From Pseudomonadota bacterium (GTDB lineage Bacteria; Chloroflexota; UBA6077; JAJPHF01), in assembly GCA_021325365.1 (NCBI GenBank), contig JAJPHF010000058.1, positions 1 through 64,000 on the forward strand: 64,000 bases of DNA, in the 5' to 3' direction. The position numbers were made by a program, and so were the translations under genes. Numbering within the stretch: position 1 is the first letter of the stretch; each line of letters begins with the position of its first letter. Of this stretch, positions 18,094 through 48,184 are shown piece after piece. The notes beneath the pieces were generated by a model, which saw only the letters and a program-made list of their open reading frames with translations, was not told where the DNA came from and did not search any database.

Positions 18094-19707
18094 ATGCAGC
18101 TCGCTCTGCCGCCGCCCTCATCACCGGTTGCGCCGCGGCCGCCGCGCCCGGGGCTAGTGCGGCGCGCGCAAGTCGCGTGCAGCGCGGCCGCGGCGCTCGC
18201 GCCCCAGCCAGTCGCCGCCCTGACCGTCGGCGCGGACGACGACATGGCGACCCTGCACGCGCGGCTGGAGCGCGCCGCCAACCGCCGGCTGACGCTGGCC
18301 GTCGCGCCCGACGCGCGGGTGTTGCAGCGCCCGCTCGACTACCGGGTGCTGCGGCGGCTCGCCGAAGAGCTGTCGCTGGACGTAAGCATCGCCACGGACG
18401 AGCCGCAGCGTCGCCGGCTGGCGCGTGAGTTCGGGTTTGCCGTCGAGGCGCCGCGCGGCCGGCAGCGGACGTGGCGCCGCCGCGCGCGGCGCGCGGCCAG
18501 CGCGGCCGCCGTGCTGGCGCTGCTCGCCGTGACGCTGGTAGCCTTGCCCCACACGCAGGTGACGCTGGACCCGGGGGCGACGGCGCTCACGCGCGCGGCT
18601 ATGCTCACTGTCGACCTGCGACCGGGCGCCCCGGGGGTGGGCGACGGCTGGGTGGCGAGCAAGGCGCTGACGACCACCTTCGAGATCCAGCAGACGGTTC
18701 CCACGACGGGCAGCCAGTCGATTGGCCGGACGCCGGCCACCGGGTACGTGACGTTCCAGGACCTACGGCCATACGTACCGCCCGTACCGCCCGTCGCCGT
18801 ACCGCGGCAGGGCGCCCCGCCGAACGACAGCGCGAGCAGCGCGGCGGGCGCCGTCCTCATCCCGCTGCCGGTCGCCGCGGCGCCATCGCCCGCGCCGGCG
18901 CCACCCGAGCGCGTCATCCCAGCGGGCACCGCGGTCATGACGCAAGACGGCCAGCGGTTCTTCACGCAGGCCGACGCGCACCTGACGCCGAGCGGCTACG
19001 TGCAGGTGCCGATCGTGGCCGAGTTCGCGGGGAGCGGGGGCAACGTGCCGGCGGGTAGCATCGACCGCCTGGCGGACCCCCAGGCAGACGCCACGGACCT
19101 GCGCGTCGAGAACCGCCTGGCGACCTACGGCGGCACCGACCGGCAGGAGCACGTGGTCGCCGCCGCGGACCGGGAGAAGCTGGAGCAGGCGTTAAAGGAC
19201 CGCGCGGCCGCCGAGGCGCCGGCACGGCTGTTCCAGGAGGCCGGGACCGACTTCGTCGTCGTGCCCGATACCGCCACATGGAGCATGGAGCCGCAGTTCG
19301 ACTACGCGGTGGACCAGCGCGCCACCCAGCTCACGGGCCGCGCTGTCGTGCGCGTGCGGGGTCTCGGCGTGCCCAGCGAGGCGCTGGAAGCGATCGCCGA
19401 CCGCGCCTGGCGCGAGCAGCTACCCGACGGGCTGGGAAGCCTCGGCAAGCCGCGGGTGGCCGGTCCGCCCGCGATCGAGGAGCGGACAGACGACTACCTG
19501 GTCGTCACGCTGCCCGTGGAGGGCAAGGTGGCGCCGAAGCTCGACGCCGACGCGCTGGCCGAGCAGCTTCGCGGGCTGTCGCCGGACGCGATTCGCGCCC
19601 GCGTCGCGAGCCTGCCCGGCCTGCGCGACCAGCCGCGAGTGGAGACGTGGCCAGCCTGGGCCCCCGCCGCCCTCCGCGTCGACGTGGCCATCGCCGCGGC
19701 GCGCTAG
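18094..19707 (+). CDS. Baseplate J/gp47-like membrane protein
   Basis: 537 aa. A cytoplasmic N-terminus of about 130 residues, including a possible nucleotide- or DNA-binding-like stretch, is followed by one membrane helix (about 135-155, AASAAAVLALLAVTLVALP). The large external region contains the IPAGTAVMTQDGQRFFT and GGNVPAGSI features seen in baseplate-J-like domains. Chromosomal proteins of this build are known in Chloroflexota without any phage around them, and no phage genes flank this one. Role unknown, perhaps surface structure. A Pro/Ala-rich linker at about 235-270 splits the domain. Confidence 0.65.
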   Translation: MQLALPPPSSPVAPRPPRPGLVRRAQVACSAAAALAPQPVAALTVGADDDMATLHARLERAANRRLTLAVAPDARVLQRPLDYRVLRRLAEELSLDVSIATDEPQRRRLAREFGFAVEAPRGRQRTWRRRARRAASAAAVLALLAVTLVALPHTQVTLDPGATALTRAAMLTVDLRPGAPGVGDGWVASKALTTTFEIQQTVPTTGSQSIGRTPATGYVTFQDLRPYVPPVPPVAVPRQGAPPNDSASSAAGAVLIPLPVAAAPSPAPAPPERVIPAGTAVMTQDGQRFFTQADAHLTPSGYVQVPIVAEFAGSGGNVPAGSIDRLADPQADATDLRVENRLATYGGTDRQEHVVAAADREKLEQALKDRAAAEAPARLFQEAGTDFVVVPDTATWSMEPQFDYAVDQRATQLTGRAVVRVRGLGVPSEALEAIADRAWREQLPDGLGSLGKPRVAGPPAIEERTDDYLVVTLPVEGKVAPKLDADALAEQLRGLSPDAIRARVASLPGLRDQPRVETWPAWAPAALRVDVAIAAAR

Positions 19708-19888: not shown

Positions 19889-20410
19889 CTATAGGTTCTC
19901 CCCCTGGTAGGCGCCGACGTAGGCCGCGCCGGGGGTGTCGAGCGGGAAGAAGACGAGCTGGCAGATGCGGGCGCCACGCTCGAGCCGCAGGCCGTGGGGG
20001 TTGCCGACAACCAGCAGCGCCTCCGAGCGGCCCTCGTAGCCAGCGTCCCAGACGGCGGTATGGAGCGCCGCGCCGCAGCGTAAGAGCGTCGAGCGCGGGC
20101 GCGCGAGCGCCATCAGGTCGGTCGGCAGGTGGACGACCTCCACGAAGCGGACGAGGTAGCTGCCCGGCGTCAGGAGGACGGCGCCCGCGTCGTCGAAGGG
20201 GACCGCTTCGCGGGCGGGCAGCGCGCGGTCGGCGCCGCCGGGGGCGTCGCGGCCGATGCGGCCCGCGCCGCTGAAGCGCCATAGGCTTTCCAGCCGGAGG
20301 TCGATGCCGTGCGGCTGCACCTGGGTGGCGACGTCGGCCAGCCCGCTCAGCAGCGGTGGGGTGGCGGCGAGGCGGGCGAGCAGCGCGGCGCGGCCGAGCA
20401 CCCCGCTCAC
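19889..20410 (-). CDS. dUTPase / dCTP deaminase superfamily protein
   Basis: A 173-aa trimeric dUTPase-fold protein. It shows QPHGIDLRLES near the start, the RPRSTLLRCG motif and TAVWDAGYEG. The wording TAVWDAGYEGRSE fits the archaeal-type dUTPase branch better than true dCTP deaminase, whose catalytic Glu in GFEGxIxLE is not seen. Either activity lowers dUTP and supplies dUMP for thymidylate synthesis. GTG start at 20410 overlaps the folB stop by 4 nt. Pairing with folB links it to folate-dependent thymidylate synthesis. Confidence 0.8.
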   Translation of the reverse strand: MSGVLGRAALLARLAATPPLLSGLADVATQVQPHGIDLRLESLWRFSGAGRIGRDAPGGADRALPAREAVPFDDAGAVLLTPGSYLVRFVEVVHLPTDLMALARPRSTLLRCGAALHTAVWDAGYEGRSEALLVVGNPHGLRLERGARICQLVFFPLDTPGAAYVGAYQGENL

Positions 20411-20784
20411 GATGACGGCTCGCGGCCGCGCTGCACCTCGGCGGCGATGGTGGCGAAGGTGGCGCCGGGCAGCGGCGCGCCGGGCTTATGGACGCGCACG
20501 GTCACGCGTTGGAGCGGGGGGAACGCCGCGAGCAGCCGCCGCGCGACGCGCTCGGCCACCGCCTCGAGGAGGTTGAGGGGGGGGCCCTCGACGATGGCGC
20601 GGACCTCCTCGTACAGGGCGGCGTAGTCCACCGTGGCGGCCAGGTCGTCGCGCTCGCCGGCCGCGCGCAGGTCGAGCGTCGCCTCGACGTCTACCACGAA
20701 GCGCCCGCCCAGCGCGCGCTCGGCCGGGAGCACGCCGTGGCGGCCGTAGAAGACCAGGCCGCTGAGCAGCAGGCGATCAGTCAT
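20407..20784 (-). CDS. folB: Dihydroneopterin aldolase
   Basis: A 125-aa FolB-like protein. It has LLSGLVFYGRHGVLPAE at the start, TVDYAALYEEV, a conserved Glu in NLLEAVAERVA and the KPGAPLPG segment. It splits dihydroneopterin in tetrahydrofolate synthesis. The ATG at 20784 was chosen because conserved sequence begins there. It lies 32 bp downstream of the selenoprotein gene and is coupled to the dUTPase-like gene. Confidence 0.9.
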   Translation of the reverse strand: MTDRLLLSGLVFYGRHGVLPAERALGGRFVVDVEATLDLRAAGERDDLAATVDYAALYEEVRAIVEGPPLNLLEAVAERVARRLLAAFPPLQRVTVRVHKPGAPLPGATFATIAAEVQRGREPSS

Positions 20785-20816: not shown

Positions 20817-21686
20817 TCAGGCGAGCGAGCACACGTCCTGGCACTCGCGGAGCGCGTAGTTGTCCGCGCCGTCGTACTCGCTGCGCAGGCGCGTGTCGTG
20901 GACAATGTGGGCCTCGTCCCAGTAGCCGCGAATGGTAGCTTGCTCCCAGTCGGGATCGGGCCAGCGGTCGGGCAGCTCGACGATCGTGCCCGGCTCGCGG
21001 ACGGTTTCGGCCAAGGCGAGCGCGCTGCGGACCACCCGGCGCTGGCCTGCCGCGTCGTGGGGCCGGCCGGTGGCGTTGCCCAGCGGGAAGTTCAGGAAGG
21101 CCGCGCGGGGCGGGCGGATGCGCTCGGTGATGTCGATCGCGCTGGAGAGCGAGACGGTGGTCAGCCCCTCGCGCTCCAGCACGCGCGCGACCAGTCCGAC
21201 GGACTGGTGGCAGGCCGGTCAGAGGGGTGTGTGCAAGACCAGGTCGGCGCCCGCCGCCTTCGCGTCGGCCGCCAGCCGCGGCGCCATCGCCGTCACGAGC
21301 TGGCGCAGCAGCTTGATCGAGCCGAGCATGCTCAGGTGAAACTCGGTCACCCCGCCGATCACCCCCTCGCGCGCTAGCTCGTCCAGCCGCTGGTAGGGAA
21401 AGACGACGTTGACGTCGGCCTCGCCGGGGCGGCGGACCGGGGTTGGGTGGGAGGGACGCAGCCGCTCGGGCGCGGTGGCGTGGGGGATGCGCCGAAAGGT
21501 CATGTCGTTGGGGTGCCGGAAGGGCGGATCGCCCTCCAGATGCACGCCGGCGCTGGTGAGGATCATCACCCGCGCCTCGCGCAGCGGCTTCCGCAGTGGC
21601 GTCAGAGTCGGCGGGCCCATCTCGGCCACCGGCAGCGGCGGCAAGCCGGTGATCTCGCCCATAAGCTCGGCGTATCGGATGGGCAT
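20817..21686 (-). CDS. Selenoprotein B-like (GrdB/PrdB family) protein with in-frame UGA at residue 156
   Basis: Two abutting ORFs form one 289-codon gene if UGA at 21221-21219 is read as selenocysteine. The upstream part starts MPIRYAELMGEITG (ATG 21686, with GAGGAG upstream) and ends ADLVLHTPL. After the UGA the frame continues PACHQSVGLVARVLE and later FLNFPLGNATGRPHD. This family carries a C/U-P-x-C-H redox motif exactly here (LHTP-L-U-P-A-C-H). Relatives are the selenoprotein subunits of glycine, sarcosine, betaine and D-proline reductases. The classical substrate subunits are not nearby, so the reaction is unknown. A hairpin follows the UGA at SECIS distance. It is first in an operon with folB and the dUTPase-like gene. 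Confidence 0.88.
21190..21208 (-). promoter_or_regulatory. Bacterial SECIS-like element
   Basis: Minus strand: ACCAGTCC-GTC-GGACTGGT, a perfect 8-bp stem with a 3-nt loop opening with G. The stem starts 10 nt and the loop 18 nt after the UGA. This fits the known range for bacterial SECIS elements (apical loop about 16-37 nt from the UGA, with G early in the loop). SelB would bind here to direct Sec-tRNA to the UGA. Confidence 0.75.
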
Positions 21687-22107
21687 CGCTCCTCCTCGTG
21701 CGACGCGCGTCGTGCGGTCATCACGGCGCGCCCGGCCGCGCCGCCCAGAGTCACGCGGCGGACGGGCTCGGATGATAGATGATCCGCGGCGGCCTGGCAA
21801 GCGGCGCCAGTACCCCGCCGGGCGGGCTCGCGGGAGCTCGGCAGGGGGCTCGCGCGACGTCCGCTGCCGGCGGGAGCACGGGCGCCCCGCCGGCAACGCG
21901 GGCCGGCGGGAGCGCCCGGCGCGGGGCGGGGCGAGCTGCGGCGGGGCGTCGTGCTCCCGTGGCGCGGCGCCTTGTGCTACCATGCTGCAATCGGTTTCGG
22001 GGCCGCGGCCGGGCGCCAGGCCGGCCGCGGGGCACGGGAGCACGGAGCTTCTGGCGGACGCGGCGGGCGCCCGGCCTGGCGGGGCGCCCAGCAAGGAGGT
22101 GGGCGGC
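21687..22107. other. 421-bp divergent intergenic region
   Basis: It separates the divergent selenoprotein gene and the lipoprotein gene at 22108. It is extremely GC-rich, with short inverted repeats (GCCGGCGGGAGC and similar units near 21870-21910). ORFs through it have no family-like sequence. It must hold both promoters; no consensus pair is convincing. Confidence 0.4.
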
Positions 22108-46037: not shown

Positions 46038-46610
46038 CTAAGCGAGCACGACGACGCTGGTCCGGAACTCCTGCACCACGCCGGTGGCCGGGTCGTACTG
46101 GTGACGCAGCCGGCCGTTCAGGTCGCCGCCGTAGACGTGGATCGAGCACGATGGGTGCGGCGCCTGGTTCGTGATGCGGTGGATCTCCTCGTCGGGCGGC
46201 AGCAGGTGGGTGACGACGCCGGGCAGGTTGACGACCGCACCCGCCGACCGCAGGGCGGCATAGTCGGGGCGCGTGCGGTCGTCGGTGCGCTTGAAGCGCT
46301 CCTCGTGCTCGGCGCCGCGCCAGACGCCGACGAGGCCCCAGGTCGTGTGGTCGTGGATGGGCGTCGCGTAGCCCGTGTTGAAGACGACCGAGACGATGCT
46401 GTAGGCGTCGGCGGGGTGCTTGTGCAGGAGGTACTGCACGGAGCCACCGCGGGGCTCGGCGTAGCGCGCGTCGAGCCAGCGCATGTCGGCGAGCAGCCGC
46501 GCGAGCAGCGGCTTCGCCCGCTCGACCACCGCGCGGTGGTCCGCGCCCTCCTCGGCCACGACGGCGTCGAGATCGCGCGCGAACGCGGCCACATCGTAGG
46601 TGGAAATCAT
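46038..46610 (-). CDS. Cysteine dioxygenase family cupin
   Basis: A 190-aa cupin of the thiol dioxygenase family. The iron site is ATPIHDHTTWGLVGVWRG (HxH) with a later His in IHRITNQAPHPSCSIHVYG. It would oxidise cysteine or a related thiol (such as 3-mercaptopropionate) to the sulfinate with O2. The ATG at 46610 follows AAAGGAG and overlaps the rhodanese stop (ATGA). The pairing points to sulfur-compound breakdown. Confidence 0.87.
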   Translation of the reverse strand: MISTYDVAAFARDLDAVVAEEGADHRAVVERAKPLLARLLADMRWLDARYAEPRGGSVQYLLHKHPADAYSIVSVVFNTGYATPIHDHTTWGLVGVWRGAEHEERFKRTDDRTRPDYAALRSAGAVVNLPGVVTHLLPPDEEIHRITNQAPHPSCSIHVYGGDLNGRLRHQYDPATGVVQEFRTSVVVLA

Positions 46611-48184
46611 GGCTGCTCCTTTACGAGGTTCTCTTCCCACGTCAGGTAGTTCTCCATGTCGGTCCGGGTGCGCTGCAGGGGACCGCTCCAGAGCGTGTGG
46701 CCGAAATCGCCCTGCGCCTCGGCCACCGACACGTCAGCGCCGTCCAGCCCTTCCACGACGGGCAGACCCGCCGCCCGCCAGGCTGGCACGCCGCCCGCCA
46801 GGTAGCGCGCGTCGCCGTAGCCGAGGCCGCGCAGCGTGGCCGCCGCCAGGGCCGCGCGCAGGCCCGTGTCGCAGACCGTCACGACCGACGTGGCGCGGTC
46901 GGGCACCAGCGCGGCGATCCCGAATTCGAGCTTGCCACGCGCCAGCCAACGCGCCCCCGGCAGGTGGCCCATGCCGAACTCGCCGCTGCCGCGCACGTCG
47001 AGCACTGCCACGCGGCCCGCCCGAAGCGCGTCGGCCAGAGCGGGGGGCGCGATGGCGGGGGCGGCCTGCTGGGCGGCCGCCAGACCGAAGACCGTGGGCG
47101 GGGCGTCGCCGGTCGCCAGCGCCTGGCCGTCGGCCGTCCAGGCAGCTATGCCCCCCGCCAGCACGCGCACGTCGGCGAACCCCAGCCGCTGCAACAGCGC
47201 GGCGGCCCAGACCGGCCGCACGGGATCGTCGGCGACCACGACGACCGGCAGCGAGGGGATGGCCAGCCAGTTCTCGTAGTGCAGCGCGAGCTGGCCCGCT
47301 GGCAGCGCGATCGCGCCGGGCAGGTGGCCGGCGCGGTACTCCTCGGGCAGGCGCACGTCCACGACGTAGTGGGGTTGGCGGGTCTGCAGCGTGTCGGGCG
47401 CGACGAAGCGGATGCCCGCGTCGCGGCTCAGGCGGGCGGTGGCCGCGGCGGTCCAGTCGGCGTGCGTCTCGGGCGCCACGGCGGGGCGGCCGCGGCCCGG
47501 CCCCTCCTCCAGCGCGTAGCCGGCCAGGCGCCAGCCCATCGCGCCGTTCAGCAGCGCCTGTACGTTGGGCAGGCCGGCCTCGCGGAGGAGCGCCGCGCCG
47601 AGGATGCCGCGCGTGCGGCCCGCGCACGACACGACGACTGGCGCGTCGGGGCGGTCGAGCAGGGCGGGCACCTCGCGGACGAGCTGGCCGCCCGGCACGT
47701 GGTAGGCGTCGGGCACGTGGCCGCGCAGGTACTCCTCCTCCGTGCGCACGTCCACCACGGTGAGCGGCTCGCCGCGCGCCCGCCGCGCCGCCAGCTCCTC
47801 GGCCGTCACCTGCGGCACGCCGGCGGCCGCGACGCGCTCGCCGTAGGCCTTGCCAGGGACGCCCCAGCCCTCGATCACCAGGCGCCCGCTCGCGCGCCAG
47901 ACGTCCAGCCCGCCGGCCAGCACCCGTGCGTCGCGGTAGCCCATCGCCGCGAGCGTCGCGGCGGCCAGCGCGCTGCGCCGCCCATCGTTGCAGTACAGGA
48001 CTAGCGGCCAGCCCGGATCGGGCACGACGGTCGGCAGGCGCAGCTCGATCAGGCCGCGCGGCAGCGGGGTGGCCCCCGGAATCTGCCCCAGCGCGAACTC
48101 GCCCCGCTCGCGCACGTCGAGCAGCACCGGCGGGCGCTCGCTGGCCCGCAGCCGCTCTAGCTCCGCCGCGTCAATCTCGTGCAT
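46607..48184 (-). CDS. Four-domain rhodanese (sulfurtransferase)
   Basis: 525 aa with four rhodanese-homology domains at about 5-110, 125-225, 255-355 and 375-480. Active-site loops are CNDGRR (domain 1), CAGRTR (2), VADDPVR (3, no Cys) and CDTGLR (4). Three domains should form persulfides, while the third looks inactive. It ends with a short tail (WEENLVKEQP). It is coupled with the thiol dioxygenase just downstream, so it probably handles sulfane sulfur from the same thiol pathway. Confidence 0.9.
   Translation of the reverse strand: MHEIDAAELERLRASERPPVLLDVRERGEFALGQIPGATPLPRGLIELRLPTVVPDPGWPLVLYCNDGRRSALAAATLAAMGYRDARVLAGGLDVWRASGRLVIEGWGVPGKAYGERVAAAGVPQVTAEELAARRARGEPLTVVDVRTEEEYLRGHVPDAYHVPGGQLVREVPALLDRPDAPVVVSCAGRTRGILGAALLREAGLPNVQALLNGAMGWRLAGYALEEGPGRGRPAVAPETHADWTAAATARLSRDAGIRFVAPDTLQTRQPHYVVDVRLPEEYRAGHLPGAIALPAGQLALHYENWLAIPSLPVVVVADDPVRPVWAAALLQRLGFADVRVLAGGIAAWTADGQALATGDAPPTVFGLAAAQQAAPAIAPPALADALRAGRVAVLDVRGSGEFGMGHLPGARWLARGKLEFGIAALVPDRATSVVTVCDTGLRAALAAATLRGLGYGDARYLAGGVPAWRAAGLPVVEGLDGADVSVAEAQGDFGHTLWSGPLQRTRTDMENYLTWEENLVKEQP

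Follow-up and report, generated by a model that had tools for sequence, protein, structure and literature searches.

The stretch of DNA analysed here (the window, 64 kb) carries on its minus strand a single reading frame that runs from an ATG at 21686 to a TGA at 20817 and is interrupted solely by a UGA at 21221-21219. The first-pass annotation had described two adjacent minus-strand ORFs sharing one frame and split by this UGA, with the peptide LVLHTPL-U-PACHQSVGLVARV across it; re-reading the sequence gave the same frame and the same peptide. A GAGGAGGAG stretch precedes the start ATG. The features at the locus are:

21687..21697, minus strand: purine-rich, ribosome-binding-like stretch GAGGAGGAGCG before the ATG at 21686, by direct reading
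20817..21686, minus strand: candidate gene for a stand-alone PrdB/GrdB-like selenoprotein of 289 residues, with Sec at codon 156 and a terminal TGA stop at 20819-20817
21219..21221, minus strand: in-frame UGA, proposed to be read as selenocysteine, residue 156, in a U-P-A-C-H motif
21207..21221, minus strand: codons 156-160, U-P-A-C-H, with Cys159 as the proposed resolving cysteine
21190..21208, minus strand: putative bacterial SECIS hairpin, 8-bp stem and a 3-nt GUC loop lying 18 nt beyond the UGA
20407..20784, minus strand: folB, dihydroneopterin aldolase (TIGR00525, 115.1 bits, cut-off 72.15)
19889..20410, minus strand: dUTPase/dCTP-deaminase-like gene (NF002598, 180.2 bits, cut-off 130)

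Codon-position GC is similar on both sides of the UGA (0.74/0.49/0.92 before, 0.73/0.52/0.94 after). The nearest relative with DNA, L001, has TGA at the same codon as the window and is identical to it at 69 of 95 residues before the UGA (counted from residue 61) and at 94 of 132 after it. Downstream of the UGA, pN between the two is 0.196 and pS 0.595, and differences fall on the three codon positions as 25/24/71, a pattern that is lost in the other two frames. Judged from this pair, the DNA beyond the UGA evolves as coding sequence in the same frame and under purifying selection; homologs with Cys at the site likewise read through, so that similarity in the family extends past the UGA. No nucleotide differs between the window and L001 in the ten codons directly behind the UGA, and the 12-codon block that follows the UGA has two differences, against 6-18 in other 12-codon blocks. 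Automatic annotation would report two separate proteins here, and a 121-codon ORF does open at a GTG at 21182. A start at that GTG would, however, leave P-A-C-H untranslated, and P157, A158, C159 and H160 are invariant, together with P154 and L155, in a 61-row alignment of selected homologs. The two halves of the gene also match consecutive parts of one profile, that of PrdB (positions 16-145 and 150-232 of 238), and we consider two independent products extremely improbable.

Aligned with its family (169 homologs), the joined protein faces a Cys at the Sec site (C-P-A-C-H) in 114 of the 120 homologs listed; the motif is missing in the other six, P0011 and five stubs. P0011 (NCBI, from a Chloroflexota MAG) is a close relative stored with 223 residues, in which about 66 around the UGA are missing and both ends are kept, either through an artefact of assembly or annotation or through a real deletion. 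A search with the upstream half, admitting only proteins of 0.55-1.75 times the query length, gave 93 matches, of which 69 stop at the UGA position, seven read through with Cys and 17 are of other kinds (stored stubs were judged by the protein end). The split that the first-pass annotation expected of ordinary gene calling is thus common to the whole branch. At the DNA level, in 80 loci chosen to be rich in TGA, the aligned codon is TGA in 61 and TGC or TGT in 15. A tree built on the upstream part, thinned from 230 rows to 117, requires at least four changes between U and C, counted without direction and with stored stubs labelled U by where they end.

The perfect 8-bp stem and 3-nt loop noted earlier at 21190-21208 were recovered on re-reading, and their placement at the spacing of a bacterial SECIS (bSECIS) element also held. 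The hairpin lies within the limits given in the accessible part of PMC13188914 (a loop of 3-9 and a stem of 4-16, with a G within the first two positions of the loop, a spacing of 16-37 and an energy no higher than -7.5). As an estimate of the chance rate, a set of 17,461 codons from ORFs taken to be likely window genes, with the UGA codon itself excluded, is followed at the same spacing by three perfect Watson-Crick stems, and by one stem (G-U allowed) with a loop that starts with G; the hairpin thus exceeds what chance would give. No Rfam family reached its gathering score anywhere in the window, and a scan with relaxed thresholds over the 601 bases surrounding the site returned three chance-level families, none of them a SECIS. 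Folding of the single sequence is unremarkable in this 72% GC DNA (z -1.36, with 19 of 200 shuffles equally good); the case for a SECIS rests on the relatives.

At the relatives' 61 TGA sites, 449 of 488 stem cells pair, compared with at most 220 when the partner is slid; all eight pairs are kept in 36 sites, and the loop begins GU in 56. Among nine Cys relatives, 41 of 72 stem cells pair and none keeps all eight pairs. Across the stem, Ser TCC stands with Gly GGA in 18 cases, Thr ACC with GGT in 11 and Ala GCC with GGC in eight, beside rarer combinations; residue and synonymous base vary together, preserving the stem. In the Cys relative L008, the same peptide QSVG is spelled AGC..GGC and the full stem is not formed. 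Covariation was measured on 53 of the 61 TGA sites (alignment A1), with the structure taken from the window and the window itself excluded; L001 and L011 were set aside for testing, and L075, L079, L082, L083, L085 and L087 were omitted for shifted or odd motifs. Paired cells (95.0% vs 78.9 in shuffles), cells changed on both sides (72 vs 21.5) and covariation (0.497 vs 0.180) all reached values attained by 0 of 500 shuffles. Two weaker measures, the number of pairs with a change on both sides (6 vs 4.0) and further pair types (14 vs 11.1), were equalled or exceeded by 33 and 7 of 500 shuffles, respectively.

A model built from these 53 relatives recovers the held-out site of the window with 62.6 bits (E 2.2e-12); the runner-up at 18.8 bits is the antisense of the same hairpin, and the next independent match scores 9.2 bits. 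It also finds L001 (59.1 bits) and L011 (48.2 bits). At the corresponding site in Cys relatives, seven score 6.7-16.6 bits and L002 and L003 give no match, while one 19.0-bit match lies elsewhere in the Cys locus L010. Judged by this conservation and covariation, the hairpin is a bacterial SECIS, and in the sequences compared the full hairpin goes with UGA and not with Cys. A nonsense mutation, leaving a pseudogene, or a sequencing error could have broken a Cys gene, the UGA being one base away from the TGC/TGT of the Cys relatives. A conserved UGA with its hairpin speaks strongly against this: the same codon recurs across the TGA-enriched loci, the database stubs end there, the downstream part is under purifying selection and the full hairpin tracks UGA. 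We give a broken gene hardly any credence.

Variants of the site occur among the relatives. One from an Acidobacteriota sample (L032:1900-1947) carries an in-frame TGA at both the Sec and the resolving-Cys positions (U-P-I-U-H), beside a degenerate hairpin; the double TGA could be an error, since it was seen in one genome only. A second TGA paralog with the motif U-P-N-C-x-R-A-V-G is present in L054, L060, L061, L062, L067 and L070, whose genomes also hold the first; its stem is largely rebuilt (CGCGCC/GGCGCG), with a GUG loop in 6/6. In the distant homologs L077, L078, L081 and L092, which are perhaps non-redox relatives, Glu or Asp occupies the Sec site and S-H replaces C-H.

No sel gene was found among the 33 window genes scanned by profile, and no tRNA lies within the window. 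The Sec machinery was examined in relatives' genomes. That of L001 (G001) has selA, selB and a tRNA-Sec with UCA together on a single contig; its selD itself carries an in-frame TGA. L001 is labelled Acidobacteria, and selA and selB each match G001 twice over the cut-off, so that it may be a mixed bin and its Sec set weaker evidence than appears. In the genome of L011, selA, selB and tRNA-Sec score over the cut-off and selD below it. Across 297 genomes of the phylum of G001, a homolog is present in 81 at E <= 1e-10, an in-frame TGA lies inside the match in 54 of these, and in 52 of the 54 it sits at the aligned codon. A selA match was found in 52 of the 54 TGA-flagged genomes (all except G106 and G228) vs 140 of 243 others (Fisher p 3e-9, treating genomes as independent of kinship); G220 and G236 are flagged although their aligned codon is GAA, and without these two selA-bearing genomes the count is 50/52. 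Because selA is also present in 24 of the 27 genomes whose homologs lack a TGA, the gene does not separate TGA from non-TGA homolog genomes. The selB model passed its cut-off in 5/10 relatives vs 2/14 control genomes, and the tRNA-Sec model in 9/10 relatives (eight of the ten being Cys genomes) vs 5/14 controls; ARAGORN reported a tRNA with a tca anticodon in four loci. As controls also pass these models, weight is placed on the high-scoring matches and the ARAGORN calls. Of the two results that the first-pass annotation had named as refuting its reading, neither was seen in the relatives covered, which do have Sec machinery and do stay similar beyond the UGA.

A changed code, with UGA standing for some other amino acid genome-wide, or general readthrough would also join the two ORFs. 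Nothing specific favours either, table 11 having been assumed; TGA ends nine of 31 family-supported window genes, and this gene as well (outside those 31), and the hairpin model matches the internal UGA only, making such readings very improbable. Taken on the comparative evidence, then, we are nearly certain that the gene encodes one intact protein by Sec recoding at UGA 156. SelB carrying Sec-tRNA(UCA) would bind the hairpin after this codon and direct selenocysteine insertion, and the same message would terminate at its ordinary UGA, where such a hairpin is lacking.

The joined protein matches TIGR04483 (PrdB) over residues 24-240 with E 2.8e-37, at 128.4 bits against a cut-off of 300; all 61 rows of alignment A2 match this model at E <= 0.001, the bit score being that of the window protein. 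This protein scores 10.8 bits with PF07355 (GrdB), for which the Pfam gathering score is 22, and the GrdB models as a group (PF07355, TIGR01917/01918) remain far below their cut-offs. A UxxC/CxxC active-site pair is present as U156-P-A-C159-H160. The proposal of a GrdB/PrdB-type protein with a Sec/Cys motif therefore stands for the motif and the PrdB profile match and falls short at the cut-offs of both families: the protein resembles PrdB and GrdB, yet is neither proper by the curated thresholds. The profile match and the jgi source, which labels close relatives 'D-proline reductase (dithiol) PrdB', would suit a true PrdB or GrdB subunit whose partner is encoded at another place in the genome. 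Against this stand the scores, a PrdA model that matched 0/32 relatives (no control genome matched either) and the lack of any Grd match in the 30 other proteins of the window that were scanned. A true subunit is accordingly very unlikely, and we describe the window protein as a stand-alone PrdB-like selenoprotein. An operon with folB and the dUTPase-like gene had also been proposed. Both genes do follow on the same strand and score over their cut-offs; the pair was not found beside relatives' loci, where gene neighbours differ from clade to clade, and this context gives no functional hint. The two genes are neighbours with no part in the mechanism.

In the predicted structure (pLDDT 94.3, pTM 0.93), Sec156 sits between a strand (149-153) and a helix (157-172). 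Such a strand-helix junction is a usual position for a nucleophile. Cys159 is placed one helix turn on from Sec156 by the model, so the two could form a selenenyl-sulfide pair. Structure searches found no solved structure that matches the window protein significantly. By analogy with PrdB, the protein is probably a selenol/thiol reductase. For PrdB, the accessible part of PMC3091704 gives a proposal in which proline, while bound to the pyruvoyl group of PrdA, is attacked by the selenolate at its alpha carbon, the adduct then being resolved by a Cys of PrdB. Here the selenolate would probably attack a small substrate, at a C-N/C-X bond next to a carbonyl, an oxidised thiol or a peroxide, after which Cys159 would resolve the adduct and a thioredoxin-like donor recycle the enzyme. 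The enzyme probably works without the pyruvoyl subunit PrdA, and thus is probably not a D-proline reductase; one source's label to that effect is not supported by the evidence.

Our suggestion that the chemistry is C-N/C-X cleavage is a tentative one, drawn from the same analogy. A UxxC pair where a helix begins is a generic redox motif, and its predicted position here would also fit a peroxidase or a general selenol-disulfide reductase; PMC3091704 lists among its references a title that reports GrdB to have peroxidase activity. No thioredoxin fold appears among the best 50 of either structure list, which excludes nothing, and the invariance of His49, His80, His117, Asp61, Asp91, Arg85 and Arg100 in the 61-row homolog alignment may suggest a specific pocket instead. 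We regard a peroxidase or disulfide reductase as possible but rather doubtful.

The surroundings of the gene bear on its host. For PheS (7447-6353, minus strand), the organism-named matches, from P0142 at 78% identity on, are Chloroflexota or Chloroflexi. Between 22105 and 45047 the window holds several NMT1-type substrate-binding proteins, Amidohydro_2 enzymes, a Rieske protein, a LigB-like dioxygenase and a luciferase-like oxidoreductase, a gene content that suggests an aerobic heterotroph. Elsewhere, a 525-residue protein (46607-48184) matches the rhodanese domain in four stretches, and a 537-residue protein (18094-19707) with a Baseplate_J-like stretch (44.5 bits) lies beside ordinary chromosomal genes.

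A further reading, to which we give about even chances, is that a widespread branch of stand-alone Sec/Cys reductases without PrdA, in Chloroflexota, Acidobacteriota and Actinomycetes, carries out an undescribed selenium-dependent reduction outside Stickland fermentation, in hosts taken to be air-tolerant because the window holds oxygen-using enzymes. Within the branch, many database copies are stubs of some 155 residues that lack the active site, and reading them correctly adds a selenium enzyme to soil bacteria. Pairs of UGA and Cys homologs that are 50-70% identical, and in which the hairpin is lost in step, offer a natural contrast between Sec and Cys within the same active site.

This kind of selenoprotein is already known, since UxxC PrdB proteins have been counted in metagenomes, with 42 in the Sargasso Sea and 235 in GOS (accessible parts of PMC1088965 and PMC2398784), and PrdB counts as one of the five selenoproteins most widespread in bacteria (accessible part of PMC9312934). 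A literature search covering mostly titles and the starts of abstracts, with few subscription journals, gave no title devoted to the stand-alone branch of Chloroflexota and Acidobacteriota. The 'Proline reductase PrdB' of the Sargasso Sea and GOS sets is, as far as those accounts go, a UxxC selenoprotein family like the present one; the likeness is one of description, between aquatic shotgun data and a branch drawn from Chloroflexota and Acidobacteriota genomes. In GrdB, GrdF and GrdH of the glycine, sarcosine and betaine reductases, profile positions of about 280-430, the part with U-P-x-C, match residues of about 89-236 of the window protein, whereas the first 280 or so are unmatched. Compared with PrdB of clostridial D-proline reductase, the window protein is about 50 residues longer at the C-terminus and has no recognised prd neighbours, but its UxxC is similarly placed, with Sec at 156 of 289 residues here and at 152 of 242 in C. 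sticklandii (accessible part of PMC3091704).
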